Of a stretch of DNA of 64,000 nt, positions 27,412-64,000 are shown piece by piece. Position numbers and translations under genes: made by a program. Position 1 is the stretch's first letter. Every line of letters begins with the position of its first letter. Below the pieces are notes generated by a model. That model was not told where the DNA came from and searched no databases. It saw nothing but the letters and a program-made list of their open reading frames with translations. Location of the stretch: contig CM022670.1 in NCBI GenBank assembly GCA_012295275.1, forward strand, positions 38,320,251 to 38,384,250, read 5' to 3'. The stretch is from Chrysomallon squamiferum (lineage: Eukaryota > Mollusca > Gastropoda > Neomphalida > Peltospiridae).

Positions 27412-27446
<35 letters not shown>

Positions 27447-28270
27447 TTTTATTTATTTTCCCAGTGTTAAGAGTCCAATCGACAACAAGTTGATGGATGG
27501 TATTAAAAGTATACACATCCACAACTCCACTGACTATGTGGGAGATAACCGATTAATCCGATGGACTGAAGTCTTCTTCATTCAGAACGAGGATGCTGGG
27601 TCCCGGTGGGAACCCGTTGATCTCAGCCGTCTGGCAGAAACTCTGGCGTCTGCCACCTGCATTGCAATAACTAGTCACTTAGATCAGCTGAAGGAAGCCT
27701 CAATGACAAGGATTGGACTTAGAGTGATCATTGACACAGAGAGGGTAAGCTGGATGATGTGTCCTGTTGATAGGGTAAAGATAACAATTGATCATGTGAA
27801 TGTGATAAAGATGATAATGATTGAATTGGTTGTAACTGACACAGAGAAGGTAAGAAGAATGAGAAGTAAGTTTGAAAGGGTAAAGATAGTGACGGGTCAG
27901 AGAAATGATGAGCATAATGATTAGGTTTAGAGTTTTTTTGTCATGGATGCAGAAAGGGTAAGCAGAATGATCAATAATACTGAAAGATTAAAAGTGATCA
28001 TCATACAAAAATGATAAGCATGATTAAGACTTGAATGATCATTGATACAGAAAGGGTAAGCACTCTGATGAGTAATGTTGAAAGTGTTAAGATAGTGATC
28101 AGCCACACAAAGATTGTAAGTTCAGTACATGGTTTTACTGATAGAGAAAAAAGAAGTTAATGAATTAATAATGCAGGAAGAGAAGGCTTGCTGATGGGTG
28201 CCAGTAAAAAGATAAGTGTAATAGACTTGGATAAAGAAAGGGAGAAAAAACATTACTGATAATAAAATAC

Positions 28271-36057: not shown

Positions 36058-38900
36058 ATGGGGATTATTGTGTCAACATACAAGCCTGAGAGTAGTTCGG
36101 TATGTAGCAACAATTGGACCCCCCATCCCCCCCAAAAAAAACCCAACAACCCCCCATAATTATTAATAATAATATATAAATAAAATAAAAATAAAAAAAT
36201 AAAAATTGAAATACATTAAAAACAGGATAATAAATAAAAATTAATAAGTTAAAATTTAAAAGAAAAATATTATATGTTAAAAACCCCAAAACAAAAAAAA
36301 AACATCAAAAAGTAAAAAATAATAACATATAGGCCCTAATAATATTAAATATAAATTTGCATACATTAGTTTTAGAATGAATTCACATTATATAAAAAAA
36401 TATTCATGTTATGTCTTTAAATTCTAAATGTTTTTTCTTTTATTAAAATATCAATTCAGTGATTCTTTTTATTTAACCAATACACTAAATCAATGTTATT
36501 GCTTTACATTTTTTTTTTTTTTTTTTTTTTTTTGCTCATTAATAATCTAAAGTATTTATATATTTTTTTTGTTTTTTATATTACAGTAGTTTGTTTTGAA
36601 ATTGTTTTTATTTTTGACTAATGTTTTATTTATTGTTATTTCATTATATGCAACTCTTAAGGTTACAAGAGATAATAGAAAAAGTATCCAACTGTCTTCG
36701 GTAAGCTATATATTTAGTTTAATTATTTATTTATTTATTTTTAAATTGTATTAATTGGCACTGGCATCAGTAAAATTAGGAAAATGATTTTTAAAACAAT
36801 TTAATTTGAAAAAAGTTTGAAAAAAATGAATTAATCATGATACAGTGATTTTAAAAATTATCACTATCATTGTGATGCTGCAGTATTTTGCAGACATTAT
36901 ACTAGTGTGTTACAGGACTGTTGTGATTGTTGTAGTCTACAATATACTGCATTGTGTCAGTTTGTGATGTCTGAAGCTGAAATCTTTTTTTATAGTTTGA
37001 TGCTCGAACTGAGGGAAAAAGCAAGCAACCCAGATCGGAAAAATCAAGTGTCATTGATACAGCCCAGCCAGTATGTGTAGAAAAGCAGTTATTGTTAGCA
37101 GTAGCAGTTGTAGTAGTAGCAACATTAGCAGTAACAATACTAGTAGTAGTATAGTAGTACTACAGTAGTAGTAGCAGTAGCAGAACTAGTAGTAGTAGTA
37201 GTAGCAGGACTACTAGCAGTAGTAGCAATACTAGTAGTAATATTTTTGACACACAGCAAAATCTTTAGTTAAATAAAATTTCTTCTGAAACATTATTCCC
37301 TCCTGCACCAAATAAATAAGAATGATGATAGCATTAATCCCTTTAAATCCCTGGCAAACAAAAACAACACCCAAATAATTTCCAAGATAAACTGAATGAT
37401 CAAAGCAAATGCATATACTAGCATAAACCAAATGACCGTGAATTTTTAAAACCAAAGATTAGTCTAGGAATTATTTTAGGGACCATGAATAAAAGTATTT
37501 GAACATTTCAGTCACTGATAGAGTGTCTCTCTTACTAAAGTGGCACAAAAACTGCAGACATTTGACCTCGGTTGTTTCTTTAAGTCCTCTTGACAATGGT
37601 ACAACATTATAGACAACTATACTACACCATAAACGACTGTAGTAATTATAATGCATCCAAAATATCTGTCTCCTTTGACATACATTTTCTCACTTCTCTC
37701 TTGAACTATCTGTTATGACACTGATGACATCCTTTGCCCCTGACCTGTTCTGGCTGACATTTACAGCCCTGGGTTTGTTAAGTCATCCCCAGTGACAGTG
37801 TTTACCATATATTAATATCCCATGTGTCTTGGAGAAATTTCCCAAATACCTTAAGCATAAAAAAAGAAAAACAAACCTCAGAGATCTTAATGATGTTTAT
37901 GTAGGTTTAGTGAAACCAAAGATTATGCTGGATACTTTTGGTTCAATCCCTCACATTCAGTTAGATAAACATTACGAGAAGGTAGAAAAAGTATCAAGCG
38001 ATTTCGGTTAAGTGGTATCTTTGTGCTGTTTGACAATAGTATCAAGGAAATTCTGAAAATGATTTTGAAGGTTACAAAAAATAAATAAAACAAAATAAAT
38101 TAACAATAACACAGTAATAATGAAAACTGTTTCTGTCATAATGATGCTGGCTGTAATATTTTAAAGAAATTGTATTAATTTATTTTAGCACTGTTGTGAT
38201 CATAGAAATTTTTAGAAATGTTACAGTGTCTTTATTTGAATCCCCCAAAAATAAACCAAACAAAAAACATAATTAATAATAATAAATTAATAGTAATAAT
38301 AATAATAACAGTAATAATAATAATAACAACAACAATCACAACTTAATAATAAATAATAAAAATTACAAAATGAAATACAATAAAAAATGAAAAATAGGAT
38401 AATAAATGAAAATTAAATAAGAACAAATTTATAAGATAATATTATATGTAAAAAAACACCAAAAAACAAAAAGAATTTAAATAAAAAACTAAAAATGTAA
38501 TAACATGTAATAATATTAAATATAAATTTAAATTAGCTGTAGAATGAATTCACGTATAAAAAAAATAATCTTGTTATGTCTTTATACAAAAATAAATATT
38601 AAATGTTTTTTCTTTTAGTTTTTTGTTTTTTTATTAAAAAATCAATTCAGTGATTCTTTTTATTTAACCAATACCTTAAATCCATGTTAATACTTTACTT
38701 TTTTTTTTGCTTATTAATAATCTAAAGTGTTTATATATTTCAGTTGTATTTTATATAACAGTAGTTTGTTTTGAAAATGTTTTTATTTTTGTCTAATGTT
38801 TTATTTATTGTAATTTCATTAATTGCAACTCATAAGCCTGCAGGAGAATCTAGAAAAAGTATCCCACGTTCTCAGGTTAGCTATATATTTTGTACTAATA

Positions 38901-38932
<32 letters not shown>

Positions 38933-41900
38933 TAAATTATATTAATTGGCACTGGCATCAGTAAAATTAGGAAAATGATTTTTTTTAAAATATACTTTTC
39001 AAAACATTTGAAAAAAATGAATTAATTATGATACAGTGATTTTAAAAACTATCTCTGTCACTGTGATGCTGCAGTATTTTACAGACATTATACTAGTGTG
39101 TTATAGGACTGTTGTGATTGTTGTAGTCTACAATATACTGCATTGTGTCAGTTTGTGATGTCTGAAACTGAAACCTTTTTTCATAGGATGATGCTCGAAT
39201 TGAGGGAAAAGGCAAGCAACCCAGATCAGAGAAATCAACTGAAAGTGATGTTAGCCTGGCAGTATGTGTAGAAAAACATATATAGTTATTGTTAGCAGCA
39301 GCAGTAATAATACTAGTAGTTAGTGGTAGTAGCAGGACTAGTAGTAGTATAGTAGTAGTAGAAGTTCTAGTACTAGTAGTAGCAGTAGCAATATTACTAG
39401 TCGTAGTAGTAGTACTTGTAGTAGTAATAATAATAATAATAAAATATGTTTGACACACAGCAAAGTTAAATAAAATGTCTTCTGAAAAAGTTATCCCTTC
39501 CTGCACCAAATAAAAAATAATGATGATAGCACTAATCCCTTTAAATCCTCTTCAAACAAACCAACAGCCAGGTAACTTACCAGATAAACTGAATGATCAA
39601 AGCAAATGCATATACTAGCATAAACCAAATGACAGTGAATTTTTTAAAACCAAAGATTAGTCTTGAAATAATTTTAGGGACCACGAATAAAAGTATTTGA
39701 ACATTTCAGTCACAGATAAAGTGTGTGTCTTATCAAAGTGGCACAAAAACTGCAGACATTTGACCTCAGTTGTATTTTTAAGTCCTCTTGATGATGGTAC
39801 AACATTATAGACGGTAGTATAGCCATTATAATGCATCGAATAGGCCCCAAAATATATTTTTCCTTTGCCAGATAGTTTTCTCTCTTACCTCTTGAACTAT
39901 CTGTCATAACACTGATGACATCCTTTGCCCCTGACCAGTTCTGGCATTACTGCCTTGGGTTCATTAAGATATCCCCAGTGACAGTGTTTACCATATATTA
40001 ATATCCCATGTGTCTTGGAGGAATTTCCCAAATGCCTTAAGCATAAAAAAAGAAAAACAAACCTCAGAGATCTTAATGATGTTTATGTAGGTTTAGTGAA
40101 ACCAAAGATTATGCTGGATACTTTTGGTTCAATCCCTCACATTCAATTTGATAAACATTAGGAGAAGGTAGAAAGAGTATTGAGCAATTTTGGTTAAGTG
40201 GTATGTTTGTGCTGTTTGACAATAGTATCAACAAAATTCTGAAATCGATTTTGATTTTCCGCTGAAGTTTACAACAAATAAATAAATAAAACACAAAATA
40301 AATTAACAATAACACAGTAATAATGAAAACTTACTGGCTGTAATATTTTAAAGAAATTGTATGAATTTGTTTTAGCATTATTGTGATCATAGAAATTTTA
40401 ATAAAATGTTACAGTGCCTCATTTTGAACCCCCCAAAAATAAACCAAACAAAAAACATAATTAATAATAATAAATTAATAATAATAATAATATTGATCAG
40501 AATAATCATAATAATAATAAAAACAACAATCACGACTGAATAATAAAAAAGTAAAAAAAATGAAATGTATTAAAAACTGAAAAATAGGAAAATAAATAAA
40601 AATTAAATAAGATAAAATTTAAAAGATAAATATTATATGTAAGAAAAAAAACAAAAAAAACAACAACCAAGAATTTAAATAAAAAACTAAAAATGTAATA
40701 ACACATAATAATATTAAATATAAATTTGCACACATTAGTACATTAGGTTTAGAATGAATTCACATCATATAAATGAATAATCATGTTATGTCTTTATACA
40801 AAAGTTAATATTAAATATTTTTTTCTTTTTTTATTAAAAAATCACTTCAATGATTCTTTTTATTTAACCAATACCCTAAATACACGTTATTGCTTTACTT
40901 TTTTTTTTTTGGCTCATTAATAATCTAAGGTATTTGTATATTTTAGCTGTATTTTATACTACAGTAGTTTGTTTTGAAATTGTTTTTATTTTTGACTAAT
41001 GTTTTATTTATTGTAATTTCATTACATGCAACTCATAAGTCTGCAAGAGAATCTAGAAAAAGTATCCATCGTTCTCAGGTAAGCCATATATATATATGTA
41101 AGCCTATTAGTTTATGTATTTATTTATTTATTTATTTATTTATTCTTATATTATATTAATTGGCACTGTCATCGGTAAAATTACAAATATTTTTTTTTTT
41201 TAAATATGCTTTTCAAAACATTTGAAAAATATGAATTAATTACGATACAGTGATTTTAAAAACTATCTCTGTCATTGTGATGCTGCAGTATTTTACAGAC
41301 ATTATACTAGTGTGTTATAGGACTGTTGTGATTGTTGTAGTCTATAATATACTGCATTGTCTCAGTTTGTGATGCCTGAAACTAAAAGGTTTTTTTTAAT
41401 AGGATGATGCTCGAGTGAGGGAAAAGGCAAGCAACCCAGATCAGAGAAATCAAGTGTCATGGAAGCTGCCCGCGCGGTATGTGTAGAAAAACATATATAG
41501 TTATTGTTAGCAGCAGCAGTAGTAGCAATTGTTGTAGAGCAACATTTGCAGTAGCAATACTAGTGGTAGTAGTAGTAGTAGTATAATAAAATATCCTTAA
41601 CACACAGCAAAGTCTTTTGTTAATAAAAATTTCTTCTGAAAAAGCATTCCCTCCTGCACCAAATAAAAAATGATGATAGCATTAATCCCTTTACATCCCC
41701 TCCAAACAAAACAACACCCAAATAACTTCCAAGATAAACTGAATGATCAAAGCAAATGCATACACTAGCATAAACCAAATGATGATAAACATTAGGAAAA
41801 GGTAGAAAAAGTATCGAGCAGTTTCAGTTAAGTGGTATCTTTGTGTTGTTTGATAATAGTATCAACAAAATTCTGAAAATGATTTTGATTTTCTCCCTGA

Positions 41901-44118
41901 AGTTTTTACAAAAAATAAATAAATAAAACACAAAATAAATTAACAATAACACAGTAGTAACGAAAACTGTTACTGTCATAATCATGCTAGATGTAATATT
42001 TTAAAGAAATTGTATTAATTTGGTTTAATTTGTGATCATAAAAATTTGTAAAAACATTACAGTGTTTAAATTTTTAACATCTAAATTATTTTTTATCATT
42101 ATTATTATTATATACAGTCCAGTTCCAGAAAATTAAGTGCCAATGATGCACAGGTAAGTAGATAATATCAGGTAGTTACTGTCAGCAGCTGTGGTAGTGG
42201 TGGTAGTAGTAGTAGTAGGAGTGGTAGTAGTGGTAGTGGCAGTAGTGGTAGTGGTAATGGTAATGGCAGCAGTAGTTGTAGTGATAGTTTGGTGGTGGTG
42301 GTGGTGGTGGTAGTAGTTGTGGTGGTGGTGATAGTAGCTGTAGTAGTACTAGTGGTAGTAGTGGTAATCCTGAAAACTGTTACTATGATAATGATGCTGG
42401 TTGTAATATTTTAAAGAAATGATACTAATTTGTTTTAGCACTGTTGTAGAAATTTACTTAATATTACACTATATCAGCTTATAACATCAAAATTATTATA
42501 TATTTTTTTATTATTTTAAGGCCAAACAAGCCAAATCAAAAAAATCAAGTGTTGCTAATACAAACCTGGTAAGTGGAGAAAATCATTGTTAGTAGTAGCA
42601 GTAGTAATATTATAGAAGTAGTAGTAGCACTAATAGTGGTGGTAGTAGCAATAATTATAATGGTAGTAGTAGTAGAAATAATAGTAGTATAGTAGTGCTA
42701 ATAGTATTGTAGCACTGATAGTGGTAATAGTAATAGTAGTAATAGTAGTAGTAGTAGTAATAACATCATAATAAAAACCCCATCTTTGTAAACCATAGAC
42801 CATAGACCACAGCCTACTTGTAATTAAGAGACTGTGAATGAGCTTATTTGACAGTAGTTTCATACTGATAAATATTAATAACAGTCAGAGATCCTATCTT
42901 ATTATAAGAATTTAGTAAGTTTCAAACTTTATGCTCACTTTTTGAAGTAAGACTAAGCAGGTGGTGCTAATTTTTTTACTTGTTAGAAAGATGAAAAGAG
43001 CACACTGCCCAAACCAACAAAATCAAGTACTGCTGATAGAAAGACACCAGTAAGTGGCAGTCACACAGTTAATGCTAGTAGTAGTAGTTATAGAAATAGT
43101 AATAGTAGCAGTAGTGTTAGGGAAAAAAAAAAACATTCTTTGACTACACAATGGAGGGTTAATTAATTTTTAAAAGGTTTCAAAAATTAGATCGACTATA
43201 ATGAAAGCCCCGAATGTTTATTAACATGTATGTTTGATAGTTTAAACAACTTACAGCATTTTAGTCCCAGTCTTAAATCCAGGCTTGTTAATTTCATGTA
43301 TATATATACACTTTATTACAGGATAATAAGATAATGAGAAAGCCAATATAATAACACAACAGTTTACAAAAAAATATATATATATACAATAAAAAATTTA
43401 AATAATCTTCTGATAGTGTGAGTATATGACAGTTTTGCAACTTACGTTTTGCATGAATAAGATTATTAAATAAAAATAATTATAGACACATATTGCTAAT
43501 TACTTTATTATAGGGTTTTAAAGCTGAATTTTTTTTTTATTATTTTTTTTAATCACAGGGTGATCGTAGTGGCGTGCAATCCAAGGTTTCAGGAGCAACT
43601 GTCACTTTATCACCTCGAGTAACTAAAACTTTCATAATGATACATGTGTTTTGTTAACTAAAATAAATAAATAAATAAATAAATAAATAAAATATATAAA
43701 TAAATAATCATCATCATTTTTGTCTCATTAAACAAAATAAAAAATCAGAACAAGAAAATTAATTCAATAATGCAGATAATTTACCTCTCCAAAAATAAAA
43801 TTAAAATAAAACAATAATGATGATAATAAAAAACAATAGCAACAACAATAACAATAATAAAATAATGATAATACCAGCTACAACAAATCATCCTTGCAAA
43901 ATAACAACAATTAAAACAGATTTTTAATAATATTTTCTTCAGATTATTTAAACTGCCTCCACCTATTAAACATTTGTTGTTATTATTGTGTTATGTGTGG
44001 ACAAGTTATTAATAATATGTGATTGATAAGAAGTAAAAAAAACAATGATTTCTTGTTATAGCCGGATATGGAGGATGAGACGAAGCCACACAGAATTAGT
44101 GTTATTGACACGTACCAG
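36058..44118 (+). CDS. Giant gene, N-terminal linker: twelve small symmetric exons
   Basis: After MGIIVSTYKPESSS every exon is phase 0 at both ends (39, 75, 39, 75, 39, 74, 36, 48, 63, 60, 57 bp), so each could be skipped without loss of frame. Two exon types recur three times: A, 13 codons (VTRDNRKSIQLSS, PAGESRKSIPRSQ, SARESRKSIHRSQ), and B, 25 codons (for example DDARIEGKGKQPRSEKS and on). Later exons carry related motifs: SSSRKLSANDAQ, AKSKKSSVANTNL, PTKSSTADRKTP and HRISVIDTYQ. All centre on one or two Ser after basic residues, which suits kinase sites (inference). The third B exon is 74 bp: cgagtgaggg replaces cga(a/c)tgaggg plus one base, so it is out of frame as written. Predicted disordered. 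Confidence 0.7.
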
Positions 44119-47100
44119 GTAAACTTTTATATTAATAACAACAAGAATAACAACAGCAAGAGCAACAATATTATATATTTATTATATATAATAATAATAA
44201 TAGTAATAATAATAATATTAAAAATAATAATAATAATAGTAATAAAAATATAGTAATAATAATAATAGTAGTAGCAGCAGTAGTAGTAGTAGTAATAATA
44301 ATAATAGTAGTAGTAGTAGCAGTAGTAGTAGTAGTAAACTGAATTAGTAATAATAAGTAGTAATAATAATAATAATATTGATAAACCAAAGTGTTGTTGG
44401 GCTGCTGCTGGTTGGAATAGGAAATAGCTCAGAGGCAGCAGCCAGAAAAATAAATAAAGACTCTGGTGGATGTTTTTTTTTTTTACAGGAATGTGCAGGT
44501 GAGACTGATGATCAGCCTCTCCCAAAGCCTCAAACTGTGAAAAAAGATCAAATCTTTCAGGAAGACAAATTCCAGCATGTTAGGACTCATACTGCTAAGG
44601 TGTGGTGTTTTTGTCAGCCTTTGCACACCCTTTCAAACCTACAAGTTTATTCTGAACACAGTTTTAAATTCTCAGTTTGGATTTTTACCATTTATTATTT
44701 TCAGTTTTGTCACCAAAAGTAATTTACAGTTTGTGGTTTGTGATTGTTCAACTGTATTGCACATTGTAATAGAGTGTCTTAAGAAAGTAATATTTGGTAG
44801 ATTTTTCCAAGCTGGATATCTGCATTTGAGACTCATCACAATGCTGAAGACTTTAGCATTTAGTCTTAATTTTAATTTATTTTTTCATGTTAGTTAAACT
44901 TTATCACACTTTGCAGTAATTATTGCTTTCTTTATTATTACTGTTATTATTTTTTTAGGAATTATTTCTAAAAGCAATTACACAAATAATATTTTAATTA
45001 TCATTTTTGTCTTTGATTTATATTTGTAACAGGCTCCCAAAAATTGCTTTCAGGGACTTTTTACAAACTAGTTTCATATCTAGCAAAAGCTAGTTACAGT
45101 GATCTTGAAAAGGTCAGAGCCATTTTTCTCTGGCAGACATCCATTGATATTGAGGGTCTCGAACAAGTGGAGTCTCCTGCAAACTCTCCAATGGACTATT
45201 TGCTACGAATAAAACAAGGAACTGGGTCCCATGCTCGTCTCTTCTATGCAATGTGTCGGTTAGTGTCTGTATGTTCCTCTATCTCTCAGCTCATTTTTCT
45301 CCTATTTCAATTTCTTTTTGTAAAAGTAACAAAACAAAAAAACACCTACAAAAAAACACACAGCCCTTCTCTTGTCAGTGTTTATAATAACTGTTTTTAT
45401 CTGCCTCTTTAACAATGATGTAAGGTTCTGTTCCAAAATAAATGAGAAGGAAAAAAAAATAAAGGTTTTAGTTTTGATTTTACTGAATGTTCATGGTTCA
45501 GTTTACCAAATATATTATGACTGAAAATGCAGAACACAAAATGAATGAATCATTTTATTTTTTTATTTTTCATTAATTAATTCAAATAAATTTGATTTTT
45601 TTTTTTAAATTTTTATTTCATTTATTCAGAATGGCACAAATTCCTTGTAAAATTGTCAGAGGCATGACCAAAAGCTCGGCGTATGAGCTTGGAAATAAAG
45701 TTGACAGGCAAAAGATGGGTTCAAAATGGAATGCAGTGTGCATAGATGATAACTGGTTCCTTATAGATGTGCTGTGGGCCTCAGTCACACTACAGGTACC
45801 TGTTCCTGATGGATGGGTACCTGTAGACACAGATTTAAAGATCATGAGTGGAGATAAAGAGCAGAATGAACAAAAAACAGTGTACCAGTTGAACGAGTTT
45901 TATTTCCTGCCAGATGCAGATCAGTTGATCTATACTCATTTTCCAGACTTGGAAGCCTGGCAGCTTTTGAAACAACCAATAACTGTTGATGAGTTTGAAA
46001 ATCATTTCTATATTAGAGAAATGTTTCACATTATCGGGATGAAGACTCCTGAGAAGGGTCACATAGACTGTAAGTTGGAGATACCCGATGGCACAATTGA
46101 GATTTATTTTTCGTTATGCCACAAAACAAGTGATTTTTACAAATTCAAACACATGCTGGCTCAGTTTACGTTAGACCAAAAGGAAAATGAAAAGCTGGGT
46201 GAATTTCTTGGTCGATATGTCTTCTTTGAGCAGACTCCAAAAGAAGTTGGCTTCTGTTTGAGACTTCCAATTAAAGGTCTCTTTAAGATGGATATATGTG
46301 CCCTGGACACAAGAAAATCTGCTGATTTTGAACTAGCATGCTCATATTTGATAAACTGTCAGAACTCTAATCCAAATCTGAAACCTTTCCCAGATAAGCC
46401 ACAGATAGGTTGGGGCCCTGGCACAAAACTTAAAGGTGCTGGTTTAACTGCCATGTCCCACCAATGTTCCATAATTAGGACAAAAAATGGTAAAGTAGAT
46501 ATAGTATTCGAGGCTAGCAAGGACACCAAAGTTTTACTGTTTGCTAATTTGAAACATGATGAACTTGGCGATAAAACTCTAAATGATTATACTGTCACAG
46601 AGTATAAGGATGACAAACTGATAGCTCGCATAAGACTGCCAAAGGAAGGGGAATATTCCCTAAATCTAAATTCTAAAGGATATAATACTCCCAAAGATCC
46701 TGCAAATGTCTGCAATTATCTTATTCTGTGTGAAGGTCAGAAAGACAAATTTCCAATTTTTGAGGATAAAGCTATTGGCTTTCGATATGTTGCTGAAAGT
46801 TTGGGTGTGATAGCTGAGAGTCATACAGGAGGTTTAGTTGAGGCAAAGGAAGGTCATGAGATTGTGCAGTTTCATGCTCCATCTAATGTTCAGTTGATGT
46901 GTGAGATGGATACATACGATGAAGAAGCTAAAAAGACAATGGTTGTCTTGGTGAAAGATAATGAAGGCAACTGGAACTTTGATATCAATCTCTTCAATTT
47001 AGGAGAGTACTCTATGCATATTTTTGCAAAATGTGAAGACACTGGTCAAGATCATGTGTGTGTGCATTCATACTTGGTTACCTCAACAGGAAAACCCATT

Positions 47101-48043
47101 GGTAAGTATCATGTGTAAAACCATTATTACAAAATAACAAATGGAAAATTATTATAGAAAATCAGTGTTGAAATGAACATACATCCAGTGAAGATTTTTA
47201 TTTGTTTCAAATGTTTGTCAGAGGGTTAAAGAAACAAAAAATGTTTTTTTTAGTTGTTACATATATTATATATGTCCTTTAACTAGATCTACACACACAG
47301 ACAATGCAAACATCTGTCTGCACCATCACTTTATGATTTTTTTTTTTTAATAGTATTCATCACTACCATAATACTTCTTGGATTTTAGATACAAAACACA
47401 TACTAGTAAATATACTATACCTGTAAAGGGTTACTCTGACCAGAAACAACAATGAATGTGACACCTTGCCAGTGGCCGAAGTAAGTGATGGTCATTCACT
47501 GAGCATGCTACAGATTGACGTCAACAGTGCTAGCAGTATCTCAGAAAAAAACAGTAGTGTTTTCCAGAGGACATTAACTTTGATATTAGAATACTATTAT
47601 CATTTGATGTGCTTCAGGCCTGACAGTGGTGATGACTCTTCCATTTGTTTCCCATTACAGAGATTTGGTTGGATTCACTAAAAGATTACCGTCCCAAAGC
47701 TTTTTACCCTGAACACTGAAGGACTTTGGATTCATCTTACCCGAAAGAAACAAATTATATCTTAAATATATGCATACTTCTTCGTTAACTCATCGTGGGA
47801 GTGAATATGCCTAACAGTTGTTGTAAAGACTGTACCTTCGTGAACATAGCATATTGTGAACTCTTATGGTTTTCACTGACATGAATGTTCAGAAAATTAA
47901 TTAATTGTTGACATTTGGTTTGCCAATCATATTATTGTGTTTTTAAATTTGAAAATGATTGGGTTTTTTTTTTTTTTATCTTTTTATTCTTTTTTTCTTA
48001 TAAAATGAAAGCATACTAAAATGAAAAAAAAAATAATAATATT

Positions 48044-48644: not shown

Positions 48645-51600
48645 AATAAATTAAGTTCGGATTAGATCAGTCTAGACTTGTTAAAAATGAATGTATACTG
48701 AATATATGAAGTTTTAAATGGCTCTGATCATAAACCAGACTTATTCAAAATGTATAAATGAGAACTTATAAACCATTTATATTAATTCTAAATATTGTAG
48801 TGACAGACATCGCTAATAGCTGTAACTGAATTAATTGTAATTTCATATTCATATAGAAAACAATCTGTTAGACTGTTCTAAGATTTAAAATTTAAAAAGA
48901 ACAACAAAAATTATTAATTATTAAAGAAGGCACAGAGAAAGAACAGCATATCAAAATTATATTACAACTGCATGTATAATCTACCAAATTACTTTCATTA
49001 CATGGGAGATAAGATTTATTGAAAATAACTTTATTTGTATTTAAAATAACAGCCACAATGTGTACAGATAAGTAATAATGACTGTTAAGGATAGTTTGCA
49101 TTAATTCAGTAGAATATTCCGTAATATTCAAGATTATTTCCAGTACCAATGATATTAAACAAAGTCAAAACCTTTTCTATTAGGAGATCCATGAATGTTT
49201 TCTTAATAATTTAAATCGTATTGTTTTTGTTTTTTCAATCTAAAGTAAATAAAAACTTTTTTATTTTTTCAAGCAGTGGTACTATAATCAGAAATGAAAT
49301 CATTATCTTCTTAATATTTTGAATATTTAATATAAAGTCTGAGTTTGTCATTTTGATAATGAACAGATATGACATATTTGTTTTCTGCAAAACTTTTTCT
49401 TTAGTCTCCACAAAATAGAAAATAATGGGAAAACAATTACTGTATTATAGATTTTGACATTTTGTAGGTAATTGAAAATAGGAAACAGAGATATAATATT
49501 TGAATTTCAGTGTGCTTCTTAATTCATATCAATCAGTAATTTGTTTCTGATCAGAAATGTAAGGTGTGCATAAGCATTGGCATATCAGTGATTCATTTTT
49601 GTATGTTGTAATTCAGAATTATCTTTTCATCATTTTAGTATACATACTTTGAAAATAGGAATTGGCTAAGAAACTAGGGTTGACTGCCCTCATGGAACAA
49701 AATAATACACCATAAAAATTTAGTTTTTGCATTTTTAAATTATAAAAATGGCATTACAAATTTGGTACTGAAGGCACATACCTAAACCCAGATTTACCAC
49801 TAACTTGAAATGAAATTATTTAATGAAAATAAATTATTCTTACTACATTTTATGTATGTGTGTGTATGAGAATGTATGCATACTTTTTTGTGAGATTTTA
49901 AAGTAATGACTGATGTTTTGTTTAATTGGCAGAATTAAGGCAACGTCAACTTAAATATGGTATTAAAAATGGCTTACGGTTAGAAAATGAAGAGATGATG
50001 GTAGAGGCTATAGAAAGATACAAACAGTTCAATCCACCAGAAGATGATCCAGTTCTAAAAGAGGCACTAGAAGACTTAAACAATTTCAGACTGAAAAAGT
50101 TACGTAAACAAATAGAGGCTGATATTAACAAGGCAGTTCAGTTGGAAGATGCAAACCTATTAGAACAACTCATACAAAAATATCTTGAAACCAACCCGCC
50201 AGCAGATGATCCTGTTCCTAAAAAAGCACAAGAAGAGCTTGAAAGGATTAAAATGAAACAGCTACGCTCAAAAATAAAAGAAGAAATAGATGATGCACTT
50301 AAAAAGGGAGATGAACATTTACTACAAGATGCTATAAACAAATATCGTAATACAAATCCACCAAATGATGATGATGTTGTAAAGAAAGCAGAAGATGGCT
50401 TGAAAAAGCTTAAACATAATAATCTTTACATCACATTAAAAAATGATCTAGAAGATGCTCTGACTAAAAAAGATATACCATTTCTTGAAGATACCATAAA
50501 AAAATACTGTTCATCAAATCTAGATCAGGAAGATCCCATTCTGAAAAAAGCAATAGAAGAATTGGAAAATCTTAAGAAGGAACGAGAGCGAGAACAAATA
50601 AAAATTGATATTGACAATGCAGTAAAGAAGGGTGATATGAAGCAACTAGAAGAGGCTATCAAAAAGTATCTTCAAACAAATCCACCGAAAAATGATCCTG
50701 TTCTGAAGAAAGCTATGGAAGATTTGGAAAGACTCAAACATGAACACCAACTTGAATTGGCAAAGGATCAGATTGAAAAAGCACTGAAAATGAATGATGA
50801 AAAGTTACTTGAAGAGGCTATTGCAAAATATGAAGAAATAGGAGACAAACGTGATCCATTTCTTATGAAAGCAATAGATGAGTTAAAGAAACTAAAACAC
50901 AAAAATGAATGTGCAAAAATTCAGGGAGAGATTGAATATGCAGTGAAAATGGAAGATGAACAGCTACTAGAAGATGCTATCAAAAGATATCAAGAATTAA
51001 ATCCAGATAAAAAGGATCCCATTTTAAATAAAGCCATAGAGGAGTTAAAAAGGATTAAACAGAAACAAGTTAGCAGCAAATTAAAACATGATATTGAAGA
51101 TGCATTGCAAAAGGGTGATGATAATCTTCTGGAAGAGGCAATCAAAAGATATGCTTCCGCAGTAGGAAAAGATGATCCATTTTTGATCAAAGCACAAGAT
51201 GAGTTGAAAAAACTTAGAAATAAAAAAGCTCAGGAAAAAGCAAAGGAAGAACTTGAAGAAGCTTTGAAAACACAGGATATACCTGCGATTGAAAAAGCTA
51301 TTAAGAGATATCACGATTCTTGTCTCAACAAAGATGATCCAGTTTTAGTGAATGCTATGAAAGAATTAGAAGATCTTAAATTAAAAGAGCGTCGTAAACA
51401 TTTGGCAGATGCAATTAAAAATGCATTGAAATCAGGTGATGAGGATCAAATTGAGGAAGCTATTAAAAAATACCAGCAAACAAAACCCCCAGAAGATGAC
51501 CCAGTATTAGTCAAAGCACAAGAAGAGTTAAAAACACTTAAACTGAAAAATGCTCGTGATAAAATTGAAGATGAAATTAATAAAGCAATTAGTAATGGGG

Positions 51601-54600
51601 ATGTATATAAGCTTCAGAAAGCTATTAAATGTTACAAACAAACAAGTCCAGATGAAGATGATCCTGTACTGGAGAAAGCAGAAAAAGCACTAGCAAACCT
51701 AAATAAAATGAAGGCTCGTCACGAAATAGAAGAAGAAATTAAAGCTGCAGTAAAAGCAGGTAGTAAAGAGACACTGAAAAAAGCCATACAGAAATATAAA
51801 GACACTAATCCAGATGAAGATGATCCAGTTCTTGTGGCTGCAATTAAAAGCTTGAAAGAACTAGAGATGAAACAGTTACGAGAAAAATTAAAGGAAGATA
51901 TGGAACAGGCTGTAGTTCAAGATGATGAGGAATTAATGGAAAAGATCATTAAAGAATACCGTGAAACAAGACCACGAAAAGATGACCCTGTTCTGAAAGA
52001 AGCTTTAGAAGACTTGAAGGAAATGAAAACGAGACATCAACGTGAAAAAATAGAAAAGGACATGAGGAATGCTGTGAATGCCGAAGATGATAAGCTGCTG
52101 GAGAAAGCAATCAAAGAATACATGGATACATACCCCAAAGATGATGATCCAGTTTTGAAGAAAGCACAAGAAGACTTGAAACGTATTAAAAAAAATAGTT
52201 ATCGTAACAAATTAATAGCTGAAATTGATAGTGCTGCAAGTGCAGGTGATGAGAAGCTTTTAGAAGAAGCAATTAGAAAGTACTTGGATACAAAACCAGA
52301 AAAGGATGACCCAGTTCTGTTGAAAGCACAGGAAGACTTGAAGCAGCTTAAGTTAAAAAGCCTTCGTAGCAGTTTAGAAGAACAAATTCAAAATGCATTG
52401 CATCAAGGGGATGAAGAATTACTTGATCAAGCCATCAAAAAATACCTGGAAACAAAGCCCAGCAAGGATGACCCAGTACTGGTAAAGGCATTAGAAGCAC
52501 AAAAACAACTTAAACAGAAAAAACATCGCAAACAATTAGAGGACGAAATTAAAAAGGCAATACATGCAGGCGATCTACATAAATTAGAAGCTGCGATTAA
52601 AAAGTTTAGTGAAGTAGCTGACAACGATGATCCACTTCTACAGAAAGCACAGTCTGAGTTGATCAACCTCAGAGGTAAAGCAGTGCGAAATAAATTAAAA
52701 GAAGAAATTGAAAATGCAATAAATAAGGGTGATGAGAATCTACTAGAAGAGCTGATCCAAAAGTACCTAGAGACAAATCCAGATAAAAATGATCCAGTAC
52801 TGAAGAATGCACAAGATGTCTTGAAGAGACTTAAAACAGGTCACATACGTGCTAAAATAGAGGAAGAGATTAGAGCTGCAGTGAGAACAGGTGATGAACA
52901 AAGACTGGAAGAGGCCATTAAACAATTCCAGGAAACTAACCCAAAACACGATGATCCAGTTCTAGTCAAAGCACTAGAAGACTTGAACAAAATTAAACTG
53001 AAAAATCAACGTAATAAAATACAGGAAGAAATTGAAAATGCTGTGAGCAATGAGGATCTACAACTGCTTGAAGAAGCCATAAAGAAATACCGTGAAACAA
53101 AACCAGCAGCAGATGATCCTGTGCTGAAGAAGGCACTGGAAGATTTGAATAACATAAAACTAAAACAGGAACGCAATAAAATAAAAGAGCAGATAGATAA
53201 AGCTCTGCAGGATCAGGATCCAGTTGCACTAGAAAAGGCTATAAAGAAATATCAAGACACAGATCCAAGGGATAATGATCCAGTTCTGAAGAAGGCAATC
53301 GATGACTTGAAAGAGCTGAAAAAAAAAATAATACGTTACAAAGCACTGAAAGAAATGGAAGAAGCTCTGGAATATGGTGATGAACAGGCTCTAGAAGAGG
53401 CCATCAAAAAATACCGGGATACAAAACCACCATCAGATGATCCAGTTCTGCTCAAGGCCCTGGAAGATCTAAAGGATCTAAAATTAAAAAATCTTCGTGC
53501 CAAATTTGCATCTGAAATTGATACGGCAGTAAATAATGATGATGAACAGATGTTAGAAAAGGCTTTAAAAAAATACCTAGAAACAAAGCCAAAGAAAGAT
53601 GACCCAGTTGTGATAAAAGCACAGCAATCATTAAATTATATGAAGCAGAAACATCATTTAAAAAAAATAGAAGAAGAAATTAATGAAGCTATTCATGCAG
53701 GTGATGAACAAAAGCTGGAAAATGCAATAAAAAAATATTCTGAAATTTGTCAGAATGAAAATGACCCAGTCTTGGTGAAGGCTAAAGAGGAATTGAACGA
53801 CCTGAAAGTAAAAAAATTACGTAATAGGATAAAGGGCGAAATTGAACAGGCAGTCAGGAAGGAAGATGAACAACAACTTGATGAGGCCATCCAAAAATAC
53901 ATGGATACAAACCCAGACAAAAATGATCCAGTTTTGAAAAAAGCCCAGGAAGACTTAAAGAAACTGAAGTTTAAAAATCTCCGAAATACTTTAGAAAATG
54001 ATATTAAAAATGCTTTAAGATCAGGTGATGAGCAGAAAATGGAAGAGGCTATCCAAAAGTATCAGGAATCAAACCCTGCGAAAGATGATCCAGTTCTGAT
54101 CAAAGCACTAGAAGACTTGAAAGAACTTAAATTGAAACATTTGTGCAAAAAGTTAAAAGAAGACATTGATAAGGCTATTGCAAATGATGATCTAAAGCTG
54201 TTGGAAGAGGCCATCGAGAAATACCCAGACAAAAATGACCCAGTTTTTAAAAAAGCATTAGAAGAATTGGAAAAACTTAAATTAAAACAGCAGCGACAAC
54301 AATTAGAGAATGAATTTCATGATGCTATGAATGCGGAAGATGAAAATCTTGCAGAAAAAGCATTAGAGAAGTACATGGAAACTAAGCCCAAAAAGGATGA
54401 TCCTTTTCTCAGGAAAGCACAAGACGACTTGAAAAAGCTGAAAACAAAACATCAGCGTAATCAACTAGAACAGGAAATCGAACAGGCTATAGAGAAGGGG
54501 GATGAACACATGTTAGAAAAGGCATTAAAAAAATACCAGGAAACAAGGCCAAAGAAAGATGATCCTGTTTTGATGAAAGCACAAGAAGCATTAGATAAGC

Positions 54601-56597
54601 TTAAATTACAAAATCATTTAAAGAAATTAGAAGATGATATGAAAAATGCATTAAATGAAGGTGATGAACAGAAATTGGAAGCAGCAATAAAGAAGTATCA
54701 GGAAATATGCCCAGACAAAAATGACCCTGTTTTAATCAAAGCTTTACAAGACTTGAAGGATCTAAAAACAAAAAATAAACGTAATAAAATTGAGGAGGAT
54801 ATTAATAAAGCAATTAAAGATGGTGATGAACATATGCTTGAGAGAGCCTTAAATAAATATAAAGAAACCAATCCAGACAAAAATGATCCAGTTCTGATTA
54901 AGGCAGAAAGAGAATTGGCAAAACTTAAGCTTTCTAATATACTAGAGCACGCATTAAGGAATGGAGATGAAAAGAAGTTGGAAGAAGCCATCCAAAAATA
55001 CAAGGATACAAATCCTGACAAAAATGATCCTCTTTTAAAGAAGGCAGAAGAAGACCTGAAAAATCTTAAACTGGCTAAACAAAGACACTTAATAGAAGAA
55101 GAAATTCGAAATTCTGCTGGAGATGAAAAGAAGCTAGAAGAAGCACTCAATAAGTACAAGGCAACAAATCCAGATCCAAATGATCCTGTGTTGCTGAAAG
55201 CACAAAAGCAATTAGATGAACTTAAACTGAAAAATAAGAGAGATGCAATACACAAGGAAATAACAGATGCAGTCAAAAATGGAGATGACAAGAAATTAGA
55301 AGAAGCTGTTAAAAAATACCAAGACACAAATCCCGACGTGAATGATCCAGTCTTGAGAAAGGCTTTAGAAGATTTGGAGAGAATCAAAACTGAAAATCGC
55401 CGAAAGAAAATAGCAGATGATATGAAAAAAGCAATAGAGGCAGGAGATGAGAAAGCACTAGAACAAGCCATTGCAGAATACAGAGAAACCAATCCTGATA
55501 GCGATGATCATGTTCTGGTGCAAGCATTAAAAGATTTAGAAAAAGTTAAACTAGATAATCACCGTAAAAACATACAGCAAGAATATCAAAATGCAATGAA
55601 TTCTCATGATGTTGACAAAGCAGAAGAGGCCTTGAAACAGTACCTAGAAACCAACCCAGACAGGAATGATCCATTTGTGAGAAAAGCTGAGGAAGACCTT
55701 AAGGCCTTAAAAGAACAAATAGAATTAGAAAATCATCGTAAAGATCTGCAGAAACAGTTAGATGAGGCATTTGCAGAAGGAGATGAGAAGAAGGTAGAAG
55801 AGCTCATCAGGCAATATCAGGAAACAAATCCAGGGCCTGAGGATACAGTTGTGAAAGATTCAAAAGAGAAACTGGAAAAGCTGAAGGAGGAAAATGGTAA
55901 GATTAAATTATATAGAACTGCATTCACACTAGTAAACATTAACTAACACTGTTAATAACTGAAATAAATACTAATAACAAGAAATATAAAATAATAATAA
56001 TAATTTAAAAAAAATTAAAAAGTAATAATAATAATAATAATAAAGCAAAACTAAAAAAACCCACCAAAACCACCCCAAAAAACATAAAAAATCTATAAAA
56101 TAAAAATATAAAATTGCACCACAAATTTGAAATGGATTACCACAGTGGTTTATGTAAAAACATTATGAATACCTTTTTGAATTGGACTCACATTTATATA
56201 ATGGGAAAACCATTTGACTGAAATTATTTCATGCTGTTTTTAGAGATGTAAAAAGTATGTAATGGAATAATAGTTCTTGCATTCCATCTAACACAGAATA
56301 ACTAGCATGGGTTGGGACTAGTAAACTTTACTCAGACCTAGTGTAGTGTGTTGATATATATTGTTTATAGTTGTAAGCATTAGATATCTAAATATAAGAA
56401 TTACTCAGTAGTCTTTGTATATTCCAAGAAACTGAGAGAATATGAAGCAACATGTAATAGTTACCAAATTATTTATTAATAATGTTATTATTATTATTAT
56501 TACTACTTTAATATTATTATCAATATCATTATTATTATTAATATTATTACTATTACTATTATTGTTATTATTATTACTATTATTATTATTGTTATTA

Positions 56598-56629
<32 letters not shown>

Positions 56630-59538
56630 GAAGTTAATACTGTATCTTCTTACATGGCAGAGAAACTGCGAGTGAAGTTAAATGAAGAGATTAAGAATGC
56701 TCTTGCAAATGGTGATGACAAACGCCTGGCTGAACTCACGGCAAAATTCAGAAAGTTAAACCTAAACGATGAGAATCGTGAAGTTTTGAGAAAAGCTCAG
56801 GAACGTGTTGACTATCTTCAGACAAAAGAAGGTGAGCATGTTGAGGCGAGCGGTAAGCTGGTCTTGAGAAAGAAAATTACTGAGACTAATCCTGTGAATA
56901 AATGAACATTTTAACATGTACTCTAATCTTAATATCTATTAATGAACTTTTTGTTATTGATTATGTAGCAATGGACCGACCTGTTGCATGCACCTTCTCA
57001 TAAACATATACACTGGTGTGTGTGTTTTTATTATAAAGCTGGTTGTGTGTCTTTGACAAATGGTGTGAGAAATAAACTGAATATGACTCATCCTGTGATC
57101 TGTCTCTTCTCTCAGCAGAGAAAAAGCAGGTTGAAAAGAATCAATCCAGTGATTTCAGTGTGGACTGTGTGGAGTATAGATCCATCTCCTTGCTGAATAT
57201 ACAGTCTGGATAACAACAGTTCTAACCAATAAATAGCATATATTTGTAGTGTGTGTGTATGTGCAGCTACAATGCATTTACATGACATTTACTATCACAC
57301 TACAGCTATTAGATTGTTAATAACAATTACTGTTTTTGTTTTTATTGATGTTATTATTTTTAAAGTGGTAAGTCATAGGATTTTTGGTGAATATCCCAAA
57401 TCATCTTTGTTTGTAAGTCGAAACGAAAAGTTCATTGTACACCACAAGTGTATGAATTTGAATTTTTCTTTTCTTTTTCATTTTCAATTTTTATGATTTT
57501 TTTTTTATTTATTTATTAATTTAATTTGTTGTTTTTATTTCTTTTAAACATTTCCACTCTCGTCTAACAGATCTAGTTAAAGCATGTGAGACCCGTGACC
57601 TGAAGACATTAAGAGATGCCATGAAAAAGGCAGAGAATATGGGAGACAAAGGCATTATAGCCAAGTATCGGGAAGCAGCCCGCGTAGAAATGAAGCGCAT
57701 GGAAGAGTCGGAAAAACTTCTGAAAAACATCATGTCAGTGGAGCACACAAAAGTCTCTGAGATGAAGAGCTATCCGAAACCAAACTTACGAGTACAGGTT
57801 ACCATGGCAGCAACGCTGGTTCTTCTGGGCACCCCTCAGCATGAAGTCAACGTTAGTAATGATTGATTTACTGTTTCATTAAGAAGTCAAATTCTCTCTT
57901 GATGATTACATGTTTGTGTATCATCTATAAAACAAATATGTACGTGCACACGCCTGTTCACCTTTTGAACCCACAAACCACACTGTAGATAAGCTGTTCT
58001 GCATATTAACATGGCCGTTATATTTGTGCAGTAAGAGTTTTTGAGAAATATCTTTTACAGAATGTTTATTATGTTGGTTTTTTTTTTTTTTTTTTTTTTA
58101 TATTTAATGTGTATGAAGGAATGGATGTTTGTGGCATTCATGCAAAGGAAGTTTTGTGTGAAATTTTTATGCATGGTTATATAAATAAGCAGAATATTTG
58201 TATTGTTATGTGACTGACTACATCTTGATATTGATGTGGTAATATATTTGAAGGAGTGGGTATATATGAAATGTCATCCAATAAGGGACTATTGATTACA
58301 AGTGGATATTAACTGGTTGCTTTTCTTACAGAACTGGCATCATTTGTAGGAACTGATTTAATGCTGTGGATATTAAATATAAATGCTTATGTTTCTTACA
58401 GAACTGGCATCATTTGTAGGAACTGATTTAATGCTGTGGATATTAAATATAAATGCTTATGTTTCTTACAGAACTGGCATCATTTGTAGGAACTGATTTA
58501 ATGCTGTGGATATTAAATATAAATGTTTCTTACAGAACTGGCATAATACAGTTACGCTGGTGTGGAAGATTGGAAAGGATGGGCTCCTTAAAAAAATGAT
58601 GACTTTTAATCCAGCTGATATGCCTTTATCACTTGCCAAAACAGCCAGGAGCATCCTTGGAGGTCTCACACTGAAAGAAATCAGAAGTGCCAGTTCTAGT
58701 GCAGCTTCTTTTTTTGAATGGGTAAGTCATAAATCAAGATCATATGACTTGCACGCTCTCTCTCTCTCTCTCTAAGGATATTTCAAAACAAACGTGACTC
58801 ATATCACTGGTGCCGTTTGACTTTCAAACTAATTCTCTTGTCAAAAGAGGTGTGTTTAAACCATCATTCATTTCTTTACAGACAGATCATATGATAAAAG
58901 AAATACAGGATGTCAAAGGAGAAGGTGACACTGACTTGAACAAATTAAGAGGTAAGTACTGTTGTTCCAACTCTTATCAAGTAATATTTAGCAGTAGCAG
59001 GATTTCAGAAAAAAATATCATACATGGACCCACCATGGAGGATGGGGATCAGGATATGCAACTCTATTTTATGCTAACCAGTGTTTTAGTTTGTAATTCA
59101 GTATTTTTCATTATGATGGTGTGAGAAATCCTTACACTTCTGTCATTTTCTGTCAAGATAATTATAATTATTATCTAACTTTATTTTCTCATGACTAGAA
59201 ATTCATATATTTACTTACAGTATTATTTTACCTAATCAAATCTGGGTCATTTCTGTTATGGATGCTGTAAACCATATAAGAAACTATCTCTTCAGCTCAT
59301 GCTTTTTTTTTTTTTTTTTCCTTAATTTTTAAACTAATAACCGAATAGAATAATTAAAAATAATATTATTTATAGACTTACAAGTAAGTAACTTTTATTT
59401 CAACCGATTTGTTTTTCAGTTATTATTGATAAATTTAAATCACTTTTAAAATGCAAGAATTTAATTTTTATTTATTTTTGTTTTTTAAATGTTTTAATGA
59501 CAGTTTTGAATGAGGTGAAATCATCAGAAAATCTATAA
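36058..59538 (+). CDS. Giant KY/hillarin-type protein with 54-residue helical repeats and dynein-stalk-like C terminus
   Basis: Exons: 36058-36099, 36662-36700, 36996-37070, 38837-38875, 39187-39261, 41040-41078, 41403-41476, 42118-42153, 42521-42568, 42987-43049, 43559-43618, 44062-44118, 44489-44599, 45033-45258, 45630-47101, 49933-55896, 56661-56831, 57571-57851, 58536-58721, 58882-58951, 59504-59538. With one base added in each of the exons at 41403 and 45033, all phases join and give about 3,054 residues. Order: MGIIVST start (possible myristoylation, Gly2 and Ser6); Ser/Lys-rich linker to about 253; transglutaminase-like KY domain plus beta-rich modules to about 819; about 37 helical repeats (820-2807) and one more (2808-2864); a dynein microtubule-binding-stalk-like domain (about 2865-3054). 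KY and hillarin proteins organise muscle and neuronal cytoskeleton. Alternative last exons may exist at 47661 and 57119. The function as a cytoskeletal linker is inference. Confidence 0.8.
36115..42060 (+). repeat. Three tandem copies of a 2.2-kb exon-pair cassette
   Basis: Unit 1 is about 36115-38235, unit 2 about 38236-40420 and unit 3 about 40421-42060. Each carries, in the same order, a C-rich/A-rich start (cccccaaaa), an AT-rich stretch, exon A, exon B, an AGT/AGC-type microsatellite and a conserved intron block (for example ttgatgctgcagtatttt-like sequence before exon B). Unit 3 has lost about 530 bp between the counterparts of 37430 and 37962. Intron sequence is still highly similar between units, so the duplications look fairly recent. 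Confidence 0.85.
37086..44375 (+). repeat. AGT/GGT-type microsatellites downstream of successive small exons
   Basis: Trinucleotide tracts of (AGT)n, (AGC)n and (GGT)n type lie at about 37086-37245, 39291-39440, 41506-41584, 42181-42365, 42586-42765, 43070-43125 and 44228-44375. The first six begin about 15-50 bp after a 5' splice site; the last starts about 110 bp after its donor. The translated minus-strand Tyr/Thr-rich open frames here are artefacts of these tracts. Confidence 0.8.
44489..47101 (+). CDS. Giant gene, KY/hillarin transglutaminase-like domain (catalytically degenerate)
   Basis: Exons 44489-44599, 45033-45258 and 45630-47101. The core reads LLSGTFYKLVSYLAKASYSD, DLEKVRAIFLWQTSIDIEGL, GSHARLFYAMCRMAQIPCKI, SKWNAVCIDDNWFLIDVLWA, the KY/hillarin transglutaminase-like fold. 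Active enzymes carry Cys about six residues before the LF and His in HAWNAV. Here these positions hold Thr (QGTGSHARLF) and Ser (GSKWNAV); only the Asp in WFLIDVLW remains, so the domain is probably a scaffold. The rest of exon 45630 encodes beta-rich modules as in hillarin (KGLFKMDICALDTR, VDIVFEASKDTKVLLFANL, GEYSMHIFAKCEDTGQDH). Exon 45033 is in phase only if the A5 run at about 45039-45043 has six A (APKKLLSGTF); as written it leaves the frame. Confidence 0.8.
47661..47719 (+). CDS. Alternative terminal exon giving a KY-only isoform
   Basis: The acceptor cccattacag ends at 47660 and the exon completes the phase-1 codon left by exon 45630-47101. It then reads IWLDSLKDYRPKAFYPEH and a TGA at 47717-47719. 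The isoform would have about 838 residues and end after the beta-rich modules, as ordinary KY/hillarin proteins do. A 3' UTR with AATAAA at 48267-48272 follows. Confidence 0.6.
48267..48272 (+). terminator. Poly(A) signal for the KY-only isoform
   Basis: agaAATAAAatg lies about 550 bp after the alternative stop at 47719 and before a T-rich, GT-containing stretch (aagtggttgtttttac). Confidence 0.4.
48602..48642. repeat. (AC)n microsatellite
   Basis: About 20 AC units between the KY-only terminal exon and the giant repeat exon. Confidence 0.95.
49933..55896 (+). CDS. Giant gene, 5,964-bp exon with about 37 tandem 54-residue helical repeats
   Basis: The exon opens after ttggcag (phase 1) and closes at aaaatg|gtaaga (phase 1). 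It encodes about 1,988 residues made almost only of a 54-residue unit. Consensus by eye in pieces: helix 1 LRxKIeEEIexAvkxGDE, helix 2 xLLEEAIKKYxETnPdk, then dDPVLkKAxEDLkkLKlK. I count about 37 units. A few are shortened in multiples of three bases, in the hinge (unit near 54175, YPDKNDPVF) or helix 1 (near 54930 and 55100). About half of the residues are Lys, Glu, Asp or Arg; there are almost no Cys or Trp. The AxxxGDxxxLEEAI...DPVLxKAxxxL pattern predicts short amphipathic helices stacked in a solenoid or a stiff, partly coiled rod. No enzyme motif is seen. The repeats have diverged at DNA level, so the array is old. Confidence 0.85.
56477..56630. repeat. (TTA)n-type microsatellite
   Basis: Imperfect TTA/TTG trinucleotides just upstream of the exon at 56661; the Leu-rich open frame across it is an artefact. 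Confidence 0.95.
56661..56831 (+). CDS. Giant gene, exon with a further helical repeat
   Basis: After catggcag the exon reads EKLRVKLNEEIKNALANGDD, then KRLAELTAKFRKLNLNDENR and VLRKAQERVDYLQTKE, and ends at gaag|gtgagc. This is a diverged copy of the repeat unit (helix 1, GDD, helix 2, VLRKAQE helix). Phase 1 at both ends lets it splice to either 57119 or 57571. Confidence 0.75.
57119..57213 (+). CDS. Possible alternative terminal exon (repeats without stalk-like domain)
   Basis: A tandem ctcagcag acceptor (NAGNAG type) precedes EKKQVEKNQSSDFSVDC, then VEYRSISLLNIQSG and TAA at 57211-57213. AATAAA follows at 57228-57233. The phase fits exon 56661-56831, but the exon cannot splice on to 57571, so it would be a last exon. 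No homology supports it. Confidence 0.4.
57228..57233 (+). terminator. Poly(A) signal after the alternative terminal exon
   Basis: ccAATAAAtag lies 15 bp after the TAA at 57213 and is followed by tgtagtgtgtgtgtatgtg, a GT-rich element typical of 3' ends. Confidence 0.4.
57571..59538 (+). CDS. Giant gene, C-terminal dynein microtubule-binding-stalk-like domain
   Basis: Exons 57571-57851, 58536-58721, 58882-58951 and 59504-59538 (stop TAA). The sequence runs LLKNIMSVEHTKVSEMKS, PKPNLRVQVTMAATLVLLG, DGLLKKMMTFNPADMPLS, SILGGLTLKEIRSASSSAAS, FFEWTDHMIKEI. The order and spacing of VxEMKSYPKP, VxxxMAAxxxLLG, the NW pair, LLKxMxxFxxxxMP, LTxxEIxxASxAAxxxxxW match the tip of the dynein heavy-chain stalk (end of CC1, microtubule-binding domain, start of CC2). 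In dyneins this tip lies between AAA4 and AAA5; here there is no AAA module and the chain ends about 30 residues after the W, so CC2 is nearly absent. The upstream part (LVKACETRDLKTLRDAMKKA) resembles one more degenerate repeat. The microtubule-binding role is inferred from homology alone. Confidence 0.72.
58322..58535 (+). repeat. 70-bp tandem repeat copying a 3' splice site
   Basis: Copies begin at 58322, 58392 and 58462 (the third is 64 bp), each opening with tttcttacagaactggcat. The same 19 bases at 58526-58544 are the real acceptor and exon start. Each upstream copy is therefore a decoy acceptor; splicing to one would read NWHHL then stop. Copies are essentially identical, so the expansion is recent. 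Confidence 0.9.

Positions 59539-60811: not shown

Positions 60812-64000
<3,189 letters not shown>

Follow-up and report, generated by a model that had tools for sequence, protein, structure and literature searches.

The window analysed here is a 64,000-nucleotide stretch of the genome of the gastropod Chrysomallon squamiferum (C6:38320251-38384250, contig CM022670.1), and its relatives were searched for in the 404.6-Mb assembly of 22 contigs. On the plus strand, between positions 45033 and 59538, lies a gene of which eight exons with GT-AG ends join into a single open frame that runs to a stop codon at 59536-59538 (Table 1). This frame encodes 2800 residues with no internal stop, its N-terminus not being worked out. 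The encoded protein carries a KY (kyphoscoliosis peptidase) head, composed of a transglutaminase-like core and Ig-like_KY domains, followed by a long repeat rod, and sequence comparison identifies its C-terminal exons as encoding a homologue of the dynein microtubule-binding domain (MTBD), the tip of the dynein stalk. An initial annotation had proposed such a tip at the end of a protein that is not a dynein.

Table 1. Features of the KY-rod-tip gene, in window positions (HMM, hidden Markov model; CC1 and CC2, first and second coiled-coil strands of the dynein stalk; H1 to H6, tip helices)
Feature	Position	Strand	Evidence
Exon, first half of transglutaminase-like (KY) core	45033..45258	+	GT-AG; PF01841 with start of next exon
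Exon, second half of transglutaminase-like core and Ig-like_KY domains	45630..47101	+	PF23265
Possible alternative last exon, EIWLDSLKDYRPKAFYPEH then stop	47661..47719	+	AG acceptor phase-matched to donor 47101
Exon, rod of 54-residue charged, probably helical repeats	49933..55896	+	repeat HMM
Exon, last clear rod repeat	56661..56831	+	repeat HMM, 32.0 bits
Exon A, encoding CC1-like helix and H1 of the dynein-tip homologue	57571..57851	+	GT-AG, dynein-tip HMM, hhalign
70-bp exact tandem repeat, 2.9 copies, before exon B	58322..58525	+	
Exon B, H2-H6 of the dynein-tip homologue, conserved Trp at end	58536..58721	+	GT-AG, dynein-tip HMM, hhalign
Exon, CC2 remnant (TDHMIKEIQDVKGEGDTDLNKLR)	58882..58951	+	GT-AG, open frame
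Last coding exon, VLNEVKSSENL then stop codon	59504..59538	+	GT-AG, open frame

A Dynein Stalk-Tip Homologue at the C-Terminus

The sequence blocks named in the initial annotation are all present in the order of the dynein stalk, VSEMKSYPKP and VTMAATLVLLG in exon A, then LLKKMMTFNPADMP, LTLKEIRSASSSAAS and FFEW in exon B. With an HMM built from ten MTBD sequences of PDB dyneins, the spliced 190-residue C-terminus scored 26.7 bits, the best of 5000 shuffles reaching 10.3, and among the 1010 open reading frames (ORFs) of at least 30 residues in the window, those containing exons A and B ranked first (14.4 bits) and second (8.1 bits). An HMM made from the animal's own dyneins (25 PF12777 matches in the genome, from which 12 tips were joined) gave 26.6 bits on its own (shuffles at most 10.1) and the combination of both sets 29.4 bits (shuffles at most 9.6), while 190-residue slices taken elsewhere in the protein, outside the tip, scored at most 2.3 bits among the best eight rows. 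In order and sequence pattern, the likeness to the dynein heavy chain (PF12777, MT) begins at the end of CC1, takes in H1 and the Trp that precedes H2, and reaches the H6 Trp; the window copy is 17-26% identical to dynein tips. PF12777 is the sole family matched, below its cut-off, by the 112-residue core at E <= 10, and the alignment covers the correct region of the profile (102-206 of 344).

In contrast to a dynein heavy chain, the tip is C-terminal, H4-H5 is shorter, and Pfam scans of the exons of the window gene found no AAA family and no AAA ring. After the last Trp the protein continues for only 34 residues, and the window copy therefore has no long CC2, as the initial annotation had noted.

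A Family of Paralogous Modules

Searching the genome with the 190-residue C-terminus returned 35 matches, corresponding to the window module and 17 further two-exon modules. Of these 17, thirteen lie on C5, where nine fall in the interval 4.317-4.417 Mb, three on C6 and one on C10; for L041 and L050, exon B was located in an additional search. With the HMMs of PDB tips and of own dyneins, the scores of all 18 modules are in the range 17-39 bits, 5400 shuffles yielding 10.3 bits at most. In every one of the 17 paralogues, the AG acceptor of exon B lies 3 nt before its opening Trp codon and its GT donor directly after the last Trp, and an in-frame GT closes exon A in all except L042 (16 of 17).

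A family profile, drawn from an alignment of 11 of the 18 modules, was compared with 177,635 PDB sequences. The first 51 rows were dynein heavy chains (E 1.3e-8 to 0.56), counting as dynein some rows with the label AAA+ ATPase protein, as well as a chain of 4583 residues which bears a radial-spoke label and is also found by a dynein query; the first non-dynein row followed at E 0.66. The nearest rows were 8glv_Fm, axonemal heavy chain 6 and 2, and yeast cytoplasmic dynein. Moreover, aligning the family with the dynein tip alignment by hhalign gave an E-value of 2.6e-13 over 106 columns. The 17 paralogues and these profile comparisons settle the dynein-tip likeness that had been proposed for the window copy. 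Pfam MT is hit at E <= 1 by 6 of the 11 aligned members, with 3.4e-6 as the best E-value, so some may already bear this label in databases.

In a tree of 110 columns, the family forms one clade apart from the dyneins with a support of 100, and this tree does not indicate the dynein class from which it came. None of the five own-dynein loci viewed has an intron right after the H6 Trp; three own dyneins (L011, L012 and L023) have one in the H1-H2 loop near the Trp, not identical to the family intron. Searching other sequence sources with the family profile yielded six exon-A fragments (E 1.7e-31 to 6.7e-23), presumably from other species, four of them 78-89% identical to L048, one 69% to L041 and one 54% to L045. 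Across 78 pairs, the median ratio of nonsynonymous to synonymous substitution rates (dN/dS) of exon B is 0.39.

Of note, KY-tip modules are dense at C5:4317700-4417000, where about 100 kb holds nine of them, six in minus and three in plus orientation. One of these, L042, is frame-shifted, and the region represents a young, fast-turning gene cluster.

KY Head and Repeat Rod

The head of the window protein is well supported, PF01841 (Transglut_core) scoring 45.6 bits (cut-off 23) and PF23265 (Ig-like_KY) 164 bits in three stretches (E 2.3e-48, cut-off 27). By eye, the KY core in the copies seen lacks a Cys in the G-x-C position and a His ahead of WNAV. G-x-C and H-x-W-N being the motifs of the catalytic Cys and His of transglutaminase-like enzymes, both residues seem to be missing in the window copy, and its core is probably a scaffold.

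PF23265 has at least 65 matches at no fewer than 33 loci of the genome. Among the KY matches listed, a KY domain lies 784-10,485 bases upstream of 14 of the 18 tip modules on the same strand, 0.009 being expected by chance, and 19 KY loci lack a tip module within 12 kb. Of six paralogues whose upstream DNA was read (L034, L035, L036, L037, L038 and L048), KY exons were recognized for four: L034 (KY locus L051), L035 (L056), L037 (L055) and L038 (L052). In L051/L034, a neighbouring paralogue, KY exons, one rod repeat and tip exons fall within about 5 kb; their order matches that of the window gene, and so do the splice phases at the entry to exon A and between A and B. Together with the single frame over eight exons, this paralogue bears out the earlier assignment of tip, rod and KY domain to one gene. 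The proposal that the domain had been captured on a rod with a KY domain stands as to this shared gene and not as to a single capture event: since there are at least 18 modules, 14 of them behind KY, the capture of the tip preceded the spread of the family. The common core of the family is KY and tip; in the window gene, the rod has been enlarged.

In the two other paralogues read, no KY was present in 6.5 kb upstream of L036 or in 14.8 kb upstream of L048. The DNA upstream of L036 (L054, C6:40669500-40679500) holds EF-hand-like exons (21-22 bits, below the Pfam cut-offs), and KY may not be the sole kind of head that the tip carries.

The main rod exon consists of 5964 nt of 54-residue repeats, and a repeat HMM recognizes 39 stretches in the window protein, 36 of them full copies at 47-83 bits, besides partial ones. 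For the repeat of the following exon, the best of 3000 shuffles scored 11.2 bits. L034 and L035 have a single such repeat before the tip, L036 shows a weak match, and a long rod is peculiar to the window gene among the genes examined. Compared with the PDB, the repeat has no relative at E <= 0.16; Pfam matches of the rod (TPR_Slam at E 2.7e-18 and others) were taken as composition effects. As a further repeat, the start of exon A found no support (6.3 bits, shuffles up to 13.3).

A KY-only isoform ending in the possible alternative last exon may exist beside the long form. The tandem repeat in front of exon B carries extra copies of the exon B splice acceptor; from these sites the frame runs for five residues to an in-frame TAG, and their use would truncate the protein before H2. 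Upstream of the KY exons, at 36422-42027, a unit of about 2.2 kb is present in two to three tandem copies with 80-93% identity over the main blocks, and small N-terminal exons may have been duplicated with it.

Proposed Function and Alternative Explanations

In dynein, CC1 and CC2 hold the tip, and a register shift between them switches its affinity; to our knowledge, the tip has been regarded as working only through this two-strand stalk and the AAA ring. The reading that we favour, and consider reasonably likely, is that of a non-motor family in which an MTBD homologue with the end of CC1 and no long CC2 is joined to a KY head and acts as a constant microtubule tether. The tip would bind the groove of tubulin as that of dynein does. 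With neither an AAA ring nor a second stalk strand, ATP could not switch its affinity, and the register-shift control of dynein would be lost, as the initial annotation also proposed; indeed, a fixed-affinity tip is the simplest reading of the short C-terminal tail after the Trp, of the missing conserved CC2 Pro and of the absence of any AAA match. The length of the rod, extended in the window gene to more than 36 repeats, would determine how far from the microtubule the KY scaffold is held, and the tether would connect the structure bound by KY with microtubules. As far as its sequence allows one to judge, the window protein is probably such an ATP-independent, passive tether. Whether the same description fits a whole multigene animal family, whose tips, free of motor and CC2, would be constitutive microtubule anchors for pseudo-enzyme KY scaffolds on rods of none or one to more than 36 repeats, appears to us evenly balanced.

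Several observations weigh against these readings, the first of them against the dynein likeness of the window copy itself, whose match is modest when taken singly. In the search against the Pfam stalk family suggested by the initial annotation, its 112-residue core stays below threshold (E 0.0047, 16.4 bits, cut-off 24), exons A and B scanned singly match no Pfam family, and single-sequence phmmer against the PDB retrieves no dynein at E <= 10; protein database searches with the single C-terminal sequence gave no relatives either. Structure prediction, also suggested there, lent no support and was uninformative: AlphaFold2 without alignment gave unusable models both for a read-through chain of exons A and B with the in-frame intron between them, its stops replaced by Gly/Ser (mean predicted local distance difference test score, pLDDT, 42.6) and for exon B alone (mean pLDDT 55.8, with strands where helices are expected). 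The sub-threshold single-sequence scores favour the view that the likeness to dynein arose by chance among helical, charged sequences; it is refuted by the family profile against the whole PDB and by the profile-profile comparison, the shuffle controls also speak against it, and we give it almost no credence. Against the tether itself, L042 has a frame shift in exon A, four modules (L036, L048, L041 and L042) are without KY among the matches listed, and the median dN/dS of exon B within the C5 set is 0.71 (42 pairs), which implies that recent copies are weakly constrained. Finally, the window copy is, from its residues, one of the most diverged of the family: the second Pro of PP is replaced by Asn and an invariant Phe by Leu, H4-H5 is shortened and the PK(R) of CC2 is missing. 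Two residues discussed as contacts in mouse dynein, K3298 in H1 and R3382 in H6 (in the part of PMC4987762 consulted), align to Gln and Ser, and the net charge of the tip is +1.

These changed contact residues, the low net charge and the absence of the CC2 that dynein needs to hold its tip would suit a domain that has kept the fold, has lost microtubule binding and now mediates dimerisation or protein-protein contacts at the tail end of KY proteins. We regard this as the most serious alternative, albeit an unlikely one, as the family as a whole retains the tip's hydrophobic and Pro/Trp anchors, the exon-A relatives of L048 are highly similar to it, and several of the dyneins compared have a similarly low net charge; axonemal dyneins, too, vary at the positions of K3298 and R3382, one having Gln at the first. 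The family could also bind microtubules while the window copy decays, a hyper-expanded, fast-evolving paralogue whose tip is losing its function. The missing conserved residues, a branch that ranks second or third in length among the family members in the 110-column tree, and the triplicated acceptor beside exon B, which could misdirect splicing, are in keeping with decay, but all exons are open, the splice sites are intact and 2800 residues are read without a stop, and we consider this improbable. Far less probable still is that 57571-59538 forms a separate gene and that the KY protein ends at 47661-47719 or with the rod: downstream of the KY exon there is a possible alternative last exon in matching phase, and the start of exon A is unrecognisable as a rod repeat, its score lying within those of shuffles, yet the compact neighbouring paralogue has KY, repeat and tip with the same splice phases, and most modules among the KY matches listed stand behind KY.

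Comparison With Known Systems

Spectraplakins are cytolinkers that join a scaffold to microtubules via a long rod. The proposed principle of a rod with a microtubule-binding end would resemble theirs, in a functional comparison only, as their domains are unrelated to those of the window protein. The KY head likens the window gene to the KY proteins. Vertebrate KY is a Z-disc protein in a network with filamin C, and the consulted part of its description mentions no microtubules (PMC6078408); unlike it, the head encoded in the window runs on into a dynein-tip domain. KY is also named among snail larval proteins in the portion consulted of PMC5908917, and the "MTBD-like" motif of PMC12366701 belongs, in the section consulted, to TTLL enzymes and is unrelated. 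In the open-access literature, subscription papers being mostly outside its scope, no dynein-tip domain was found described in a non-dynein or a KY protein.

Other Genes in the Window

Three further loci were recognized. At 3089-4640, a rhodanese exon (PF00581) is followed by an ORF with a P-loop-like stretch, a combination reminiscent of tRNA 2-selenouridine synthase, here in an animal genome. SARA_C exons (PF11979) at 24346-27921 belong to a ZFYVE9/SARA-like gene, and on the minus strand, 63114-63392 holds a DIMT1-like ribosomal RNA adenine dimethylase exon (PF00398).

Perspectives

A dynein tip without its motor amounts to a natural experiment on which residues bind tubulin without a register shift, and it could show which conserved residues serve communication with the motor alone. 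The 18 natural variants are ready material for asking whether the domain binds microtubules. If it does, this family would connect the KY proteins, whose vertebrate member resides in the muscle Z-disc, to microtubules.

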